Below, piece by piece: positions 12,138-13,707 of a stretch of 64,000 nt of DNA. The notes under the pieces were generated by a model. The model did not search any database. It was given only the letters and a program-made list of their open reading frames with translations, and was not told where the DNA came from. A program made the translations under genes and the position numbers. Location of the stretch: the NCBI RefSeq assembly GCF_001640025.1, contig NC_031673.1, forward strand, positions 1,922,001 to 1,986,000, written 5' to 3'. Within the stretch, counting starts at the first letter, position 1, and every line of letters starts with the position of its first letter. This DNA comes from Sugiyamaella lignohabitans. Lineage: Eukaryota > Ascomycota > Dipodascomycetes > Dipodascales > Trichomonascaceae.

Positions 12138-13707
12138 TCAGCTTGTTTCCTTAAAAGCCTGGTGAGCACTCGGCAAGCCGTTCTGACCCTGTAGGCTATA
12201 GTCGCCAGAAATCCAGCGGTTCACCATGTCTAGAGAATTCTCGGGCTGGTCGTGGGGAACTAAATGGCCCGCATTGAAAAGCCTAACAAACGTGAAATGA
12301 CGGGCGTTGGTCACATCTCCCGCATACGTCTTCTTATCTTTGGTGAGCCATTTTCTGGTTTTCGTCTGTTTAAATTCAGTTTGGCCCGACCATTGCAAAT
12401 TCTGAGTCCATGCCCTGTTGCCTAACCAATTACAAATATAATCTTTATCGCCAGCATAGATCAGAACAGGCACTCCTGCGTCTAAAACATTGGCCACTCT
12501 GCGCTGAGTTGGTTGTAGCCAGTCTCCGCTGTTGATAAAATTGGAGTTGATCTGGTTGTTACAATCCTGAAAGGTGATCGAGTTCTGTACACCAAGTGCT
12601 TGCTTTACATTTGCTTGGTTTAGATATTGATTCACATAGTTGAGGGCTTCGTAGCAAAGTCCGTTACTATTGGGATCACACGTTTTTCTAACATCATACA
12701 CATTCTTTCCTGTTTGTTGATAAGGGCCGAGTTGACTCTGTTCACAGGTTAGAGTACCAATGAAACAACTCTCAGAATTCGGATTATTATAGCAAGTTTG
12801 AATCAAATTCAAGCAAGCTGGCAGGTTCCGTTGCATATTCTGACAAACATTCTGGCTGACAACAGCTGGTGCTCCTCCTTGACCACAGGCCATGGGTTGA
12901 TAATAACTATACTGAGTCAGAGGGTCCGTCAGTCCATTACCAATCATAACTGAAGTTAAATTGAAATTTTTGTTCTTTTGAGAAAGAATATACTGGCTAA
13001 AAACTGGAATATAATGACCAGCATACGACTCTCCGGCAATGTGGAACTTGTGCGACGAGTATTGAGGGAACCTCTCAAAAAATTGGGTGAGAAAAGAATA
13101 AACGTCTTCTGCTGCTTGAGTTGTTCTGTCCACACTGCTTCCGGAAGAATAAGACATACCAGTGCCAACTGGCTGATCCAAGAAGATAACATTTGCCTTG
13201 CTATTCCACGAGTAAGGATTTCGCTTCAACTTCATATTTGCATCCACCGATGAGCTAAATGTTAGTGTGAATACTCAACTTTCTTTTCGAATTTCTTTTT
13301 ACTTACGGCTAGTAATGTTAGTTAAAGAAAAGCAAAACAATTGTAAAAATATTACTTACACCCAGTTCAAACATAGCTCCCTCTAAAGAAGAGCAGCCTG
13401 GCCCGCCATTTAACCATAGTATAACGGGATCGTTTTTAGGATCATGTCGAGATTCAAAAAACCAGAAAAACAAATGATGATCAGAGCTCTGACCAACATT
13501 AATATATCCCGAATATTGGTTTACAGTATCGACGTTGAGTTTAGTTGGGCTATACAATCCTTGGGGTACAGCTATGTCGAGATCCACAAGACTCTCATCT
13601 GTGTGATTCAGTGAAGAAGAAGGAGGAACTAGGACTCCTGCTACTCTGAGTACCTGCAAAAAGAATATTAAAAACGCAGTGATGAAAGTGAGGTCGGCAG
13701 CCATCAT
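12138..13707 (-). CDS. Serine carboxypeptidase, CPY-like S10 family, with a 2-nt exon
   Basis: This 488-residue secretory protease removes C-terminal amino acids from peptides. Exon 1 is 13360-13707, exon 2 is the dinucleotide CC at 13307-13308, and exon 3 is 12138-13254. Only this arrangement keeps frame and yields [13 protein letters not shown], matching the conserved CPY junction. Residues 1-24 are a signal peptide. NGGPGCSS is at 100-107, the nucleophile is Ser193 in [10 protein letters not shown], Asp is in [11 protein letters not shown] and His in [10 protein letters not shown]. Many cysteines and NxT/S sites suit a secreted or vacuolar enzyme. The gap between signal peptide and mature-like sequence is about 20-25 residues, much shorter than the CPY propeptide. 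It may therefore be a secreted paralogue rather than vacuolar PRC1. The gene converges with the XlnR-type gene. A TATATAA box lies about 45 bp upstream. Confidence 0.9.
13255..13359 (-). other. Two minimal introns flanking a 2-nt exon
   Basis: Intron 1 is 13309-13359 (51 nt): GTAAGT donor, TTAACTAAC branch point, acceptor TACTAG. Intron 2 is 13255-13306 (52 nt): GTAAGT donor, CACTAAC branch point, acceptor ATTTAG. The two nucleotides between them (CC) plus C from exon 3 form the Pro codon of the conserved Gly-Pro-Ser. Treated as one intron, the junction is out of frame. Confidence 0.82.

Follow-up and report, generated by a model that had tools for sequence, protein, structure and literature searches.

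Internal exons of a single nucleotide have been described in CYP621A of Fusarium, from 20 orthologues and 18 RNA reads (PMC12940212), and in APC11 of Arabidopsis, from reporter constructs and cDNA (PMC4674806). The first of these reports also cites, for Arabidopsis, Drosophila and humans, exons that measure 2-5 bp (PMC12940212). Among fungi, 3-nt exons have been reported in lipS of Dactylellina haptotyla, a gene with more than 10 introns (PMC5639578), and in Yarrowia lipolytica two cDNAs support an exon of 4 nt in YALI0E34170g (PMC2911113). In the open-licence literature that we searched we found no paper on 2-nt exons and none on microexons in Sugiyamaella, and we met no budding-yeast exon shorter than 2 nt.

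We describe here a carboxypeptidase gene of the budding yeast Sugiyamaella lignohabitans with a predicted internal coding exon of two nucleotides, CC, near the lowest possible exon size. The gene is encoded on the minus strand of the window, the 64-kb stretch of DNA that was analysed and to which coordinates without a contig name refer. As in CYP621A, the locus is fungal, the tiny exon restores both the reading frame and a conserved motif and was found through a phase mismatch, the deposited models are mostly wrong, and an intronless relative gives the length; unlike CYP621A, which has a 1-nt exon, belongs to a filamentous fungus and is covered by RNA reads, the present exon has 2 nt, belongs to a budding yeast and is known from DNA. 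As in APC11, where the exon is constitutive, it sits between two introns and is required for the frame, although APC11 is a plant gene with an interval of 422 nt, compared with 105 nt here. YALI0E34170g shares with our gene an early-branching budding yeast host and a very short internal exon, there of 4 nt and cDNA-supported, and lipS shares fungal origin and very small exons, there of 3 nt among more than 10 introns. The locus also recalls stwintrons, in that two introns would be removed from one short stretch in consecutive reactions. In stwintrons, however, a splice element of one intron is split by the other, with no sequence remaining in between, whereas here each intron has a complete set of elements and CC is left over. 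The features of the gene are as follows.

12138..13707, minus strand: whole gene, three coding exons in the model with CC
13360..13707, minus strand: exon 1, ATG to GGT, with a hydrophobic start; ends ...GAA CTG GGT in phase 0, after ...MFELG
13309..13359, minus strand: intron 1, 51 nt, GTAAGT...CTAACATTACTAG, with CTAAC at 13317-13321 and acceptor TAG
13307..13308, minus strand: exon 2, CC, the first two bases of a Pro codon
13255..13306, minus strand: intron 2, 52 nt, GTAAGT...CTAACATTTAG, with CTAAC at 13261-13265 and acceptor TAG
12138..13254, minus strand: exon 3, starting CTCATCG, of which the first C completes the Pro codon; the protein continues with SSVDANMK... up to the stop
Predicted junction strings, minus strand: CC included, GAACTGGGT+CC+CTCATCGG; CC skipped, GAACTGGGT+CTCATCGG

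A preliminary description of this DNA had placed two back-to-back introns of 51 and 52 nt at 13255-13359, each with GTAAGT, CTAAC and TAG, and these coordinates hold, on the minus strand. The two complete introns leave exactly the CC at 13307-13308 that it had named, and complete splice signals flank the exon on both sides. The two donors agree over 8 bases, and the acceptors likewise share the ending CTAACATT..TAG. Joining GGT, CC and CTC gives GGT CCC TCA TCG, which encodes G-P-S-S within an open frame of 488 codons. This is the sole open frame among the four ways of using the sites of both introns: retention of intron 2 or of intron 1 leads to a stop at codon 117 or 129, respectively, and a single intron using the outer sites shifts the frame, as had been claimed, with a stop at codon 133. 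Given these sites, the CC exon is thus required for the reading frame.

The spliced product is a serine carboxypeptidase of peptidase family S10, matching PF00450 over residues 61-467 (E 1.5e-128, 430.2 bits), a match that spans the FELG-P-SS junction. We take two protein segments of exon 3 to be the site of the catalytic triad. The earlier assignment of CC plus C to the Pro of the FELGPSS motif of carboxypeptidase Y-like enzymes agrees with the homologues: among the best 120 of 6937, own record excluded, the junction residue is Pro in 109/119 and Ser in 10/119, and the best solved relative, yeast carboxypeptidase Y (1wpx), aligns with FELGPSSI free of gaps. The spacing from GGPGCSS to the junction residue is identical and gap-free in all 119 listed homologues, indicating that the protein needs one residue at the junction, and the exon restores precisely this residue. 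The best foreign homologue among the matches listed is 61% identical. In a profile search the product matched PF00450 alone; the vacuolar propeptide domain PF05388, which is present in most of the 120 listed homologues (best 120 of 6937), was not reported for it, and likewise the T. ciferrii relative P0003 has PF00450 alone. Five paralogues in the genome (L004, L005, L007, L008 and L010) match across the junction without a stop. In a further paralogue, L013 on contig C1, a single intron (C1:995003-994854 or -994851; 150 or 153 nt, with two in-frame acceptors) starts 4 nt on from the beginning of this Pro codon (GGA CCT T|GTAAGT), so that the carboxypeptidase family has three intron positions within 4 nt.

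The carboxypeptidase exon has company in the same genome. A second predicted 2-nt exon, CT, lies outside the window at C2:2550149-2550150, in a magnesium-dependent-phosphatase gene (L036), between introns of 57 and 46 nt. Its predicted inclusion junction is ACTCTATGGC+CT+TGTTGGTGC; reading TGG C|CT|TG TTG GTG C... gives FDLDYTLWPCWCDTH and restores DLDYTLW-P-CWCDTH. The spliced product matches PF12689 over residues 3-169, and a database record of 97 aa, P0122, is 100% identical to it over 97 residues. The motif occurs with the same spacing in 110 of the 120 listed homologues, 92 of these 110 having the Pro; of the other ten, nine are without the N-terminus and one, P0164, is without a motif match. 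This second case in one genome is the most unusual feature of the finding.

Single in-frame introns were listed mechanically (GT-AG, GC-AG and AT-AC, 30-399 nt). There are 176 that keep some frame open, giving 390-496 codons, and 29 of them keep SSVDANMK, but none of the 176 yields a FELG-X-SS product, and none pairs a GTAAGT donor with CTAAC close to its acceptor. The closest, 13361-13274 (donor GTGTAA, acceptor GTTGAG), inserts residues and was rejected. An intron ending two bases early, which would encode G-S-S-S (compare the 10/119 homologues with Ser), would have TT as its last two bases and was discarded on inspection by eye.

The signals themselves were assessed over four contigs totalling 15.93 Mb, with reversed patterns as controls; these controls are counts of motif matches. 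GTAAGT-N25-55-CTAAC-N1-10-AG has 804 matches in the genome against 174 in the control (some introns match more than once), and the same pattern with a GTATGT donor has 124 against 107, which indicates that introns combining GTAAGT with a nearby CTAAC are a main type in S. lignohabitans. In the retrieved DNA, 35 sequences of this type are 46-81 nt long (filter 37-84). The motif linking two such introns, CTAAC-N1-9-AG-N0-12-GTAAGT, occurs once in the window against 0.12 expected. Genome-wide the linking motif (N1-10) is not enriched, with 39 matches against 79 in the control, and neither are longer or variant forms (13 against 27, 11 against 38, 26 against 30 and 8 against 28). The linking motif alone therefore proves nothing; the strength of the case lies in the flanking introns and the reading frame. 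In single-base shuffles of the interval that kept the outer hexamers, the 2-nt arrangement arose in 1 of 300,000, and any spacing of 0-30 nt in 27 of 300,000.

These observations bear on whether the interval could be read in some other way. One 105-nt intron using the outer sites would suffice had the assembly lost two bases beside a splice site: the outer sites are good, and introns with such spacing exist in the genome. Chance would then have to supply a further complete branch point, acceptor and donor with precisely two bases between the two sites, as in the single shuffle above; the two bases happen to give the conserved Pro, and the same arrangement recurs in the phosphatase gene. We consider this reading very improbable. 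A sequencing error of one or two bases, also raised in the preliminary description, we judge unlikely, since between the outer sites there are two entire introns of the type usual in this genome, and a second gene is arranged alike. Nor is it at all likely that the gene is a damaged copy in which the frame is irrelevant. The presence of several paralogues could make its loss tolerable, and PF05388 is not reported for it; against this, inclusion of CC leaves 488 codons open with PF00450 over most of the product (61-467), and the T. ciferrii relative resembles it in its domain content. Complex introns have been described in the yeast genus Lipomyces (PMC7138796), and a term search of that text found no mention of small exons. 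That the interval is a stwintron or a unit of recursive splicing, and not an exon flanked by two introns, is hardly credible, however, as the splice elements of each intron are left intact by the other, and the definition of a stwintron already fails there. No donor is rebuilt at the junction, where GGT|CC simply joins the existing GTAAGT; CC stays in the message, and, unlike the removal of a recursive-splicing exon, its removal breaks the frame.

We are therefore highly confident in a gene of three coding exons, the middle one CC, whose two U2-type introns are recognised by intron definition and taken out in two separate removals, in either order. That splicing actually proceeds by two removals, and with what order and efficiency, we infer. 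Intron 1 (51 nt) and intron 2 (52 nt) would each be recognised across itself, and two separate reactions, in either order, would join GGT|CC|CTC. Removal of intron 1 first would leave GGTCC|GTAAGT and removal of intron 2 first TAG|CCCTCA; in either case a normal site would remain for the other intron. The U1 particle contacts a donor at about -3 to +6, and at the second donor position -3 falls on the G of the AG with which intron 1 ends. A U1 particle bound there would overlap the first acceptor, so that both sites could hardly be bound at once and removal would be sequential. Of the mechanism proposed in the preliminary description, intron definition and stepwise removal are a reasonable inference, whereas resplicing of the recursive type need not be invoked, both introns being equipped with full signals of their own. 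The two outermost sites could also be paired with each other, at 105 nt; pairings of this type, with a 71-101-nt spacer, have 268 matches in the genome against 163 in the control, and some transcripts may therefore skip CC. It is conceivable, although we think it rather unlikely, that this product, stopping at codon 133, is substantial and perhaps regulated, as a frame-shifting decoy for nonsense-mediated decay. The likeness of the donors, identical over 8 bases, and of the acceptors would allow it, exon skipping is reported in 4 Yarrowia genes (PMC2911113), and genes of the exon-junction complex are reported to be kept in S. lignohabitans (PMC6351623). Matches with a short spacer, however, exceed control by ~630 and those with a long spacer by ~105; pairing within each intron is thus probably favoured, which would favour inclusion of CC.

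The search for further very short exons was a partial scan and no census: weak branch points and other donors were largely missed, and part of the matches were read. All 39 matches to the linking motif were checked for an upstream donor and a downstream branch point, and ten of these loci (L036, L022, L034, L038, L018, L046, L048, L017, L027 and L032) were read in translation; the remaining matches, including L015, L023 and L050, were judged from flanking signals alone. The frame test on wider scans covered 22 of 23 loci (all except L065), and an in-frame two-intron model is possible at nine of the 22, five of them with stricter sites. Two of the 26 matches in the scan for other donors were followed with new DNA (L083 and L084), and two places in the scan with 8 matches (C2:1406393 and C2:2050758) are L032 and L034, both read in translation. 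L018, L027, L032, L046 and L048 were not accepted after reading in translation, nor were L061, from a wider scan, and L084. The other exons and candidates are the following.

L022, secreted-lipase-like gene: 5-nt exon GGCTG, introns of 64 and 131 nt
L034, secreted-lipase-like gene: 5-nt exon GGCTG, introns of 84 and 92 nt; solved lipases align with the spliced product across the site
L017, third lipase paralogue: 5-nt exon GGATG, found by eye, with weaker acceptors and branch points
L038, PHO85: 9-nt exon; in an alignment with solved Pho85 the product matches from residue 3 onwards
L066, C1:5601609: 21-nt exon in a gene that we take to be NTF2-like, from the wider scans and frame test
L059 and L068: candidate exons of 22-31 nt; L068, at C2:3108545, has about 30 nt in a membrane-protein-like gene
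L083/L085, C1:3710046-3710047: candidate third 2-nt exon, AG, in a gene for a DUF202 protein

These exons rest on the same kind of evidence as the carboxypeptidase exon, namely anatomy, frame and protein match. The 5-nt exon of the three lipase genes encodes Gly-Trp after GYSGGS.A. At the candidate third 2-nt exon the frame fits and the product has a weak DUF202 match over residues 37-81 (24.0 bits against a cut-off of 23.4), but none of 40 candidates scored as a homologue, which leaves this exon unproven. We raise tentatively, as a doubtful though real possibility, that there is a recurring class of 2-5-nt exons, with 2-nt exons in at least two, perhaps three, genes and 5-nt exons in three lipases, for which there would be no practical lower limit to exon size and outer pairing would act as a frame-shifting off-switch.

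For the origin of such exons, Nelson and Syed have proposed that a base is lost at an exon edge and a cryptic exon then adopted (PMC12940212). Local intron duplication is not supported for the carboxypeptidase gene, since 81 among the 378 background pairs (a set that may contain the pair itself) are as similar as its two introns. For the phosphatase gene 6 of 378 background pairs are as similar, and its introns share 12 identical first bases, seen in 1 of 595 pairs (that pair itself); a local duplication is weakly suggested there by these sequence likenesses. Both introns of the L083 candidate start GTACGT, and the pair does not align, all 378 background pairs scoring as high.

Several repeats were also noted in the genome. 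At C1:232890-233389 four consecutive similar short introns (GTAAGTA..GAAGTG..CCTGCTAAC) lie within 500 bp, which suggests tandem duplication of an exon-intron unit. Six CTAACTTCTAAGGTGAGT places on C1, C2 and C3 are near-identical copies of CTAACTTCTAAGGTGAGTTT...CTAAC, and are probably a repeat element. A GC-rich repeat (GGGGTCTGGGGCNNNGCCCCAGCCGCCGGAGGC) has 3242 + 3190 copies in the genome at no more than 2 mismatches, against 0 for the reversed control, which amounts to roughly one copy every 2.5 kb. Of the 19 copies in the window, 16 are arranged as eight inverted pairs whose members lie about 70-80 bp from each other, with starts near the following positions.

1253/1334: inverted GGGGTCTGGGGCNNNGCCCCAGCCGCCGGAGGC pair
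2548/2627: inverted GGGGTCTGGGGCNNNGCCCCAGCCGCCGGAGGC pair
5299/5379: inverted GGGGTCTGGGGCNNNGCCCCAGCCGCCGGAGGC pair
7000/7082: inverted GGGGTCTGGGGCNNNGCCCCAGCCGCCGGAGGC pair
7342/7423: inverted GGGGTCTGGGGCNNNGCCCCAGCCGCCGGAGGC pair
9010/9079: inverted GGGGTCTGGGGCNNNGCCCCAGCCGCCGGAGGC pair
39067/39148: inverted GGGGTCTGGGGCNNNGCCCCAGCCGCCGGAGGC pair
58587/58666: inverted GGGGTCTGGGGCNNNGCCCCAGCCGCCGGAGGC pair

In this pairing the repeat resembles a miniature transposable element. It is also found inside many longer GTAAGT...CTAAC introns, in both orientations, including introns 1 and 3 of L083 and intron 2 of L022, and so may enlarge or even create introns.

S. lignohabitans is described as intron-poor, and 5% of its 6820 genes are said to be split (PMC5499181). 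Such counts may be too low, given the excess of ~630 matches over control for one intron type, some introns matching twice or more. The two 2-nt-exon genes illustrate the annotation matter directly, their records lacking the beginnings of both. The carboxypeptidase record P0001 (365 aa) starts with MKLKRNPY inside exon 3 and is thus without exons 1 and 2, and the phosphatase record P0122 starts far downstream of its 2-nt exon; in each, the sequence ahead of the 2-nt exon is missing entirely, together with some that follows it. For the biology of splicing, a 2-nt exon leaves no room for recognition by exon-bridging factors, so that the carboxypeptidase gene offers a natural setting for testing pure intron definition as well as the order of two neighbouring splicing events. 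Together with the 5- and 9-nt exons, the two genes with 2-nt exons make one small genome a compact test set.
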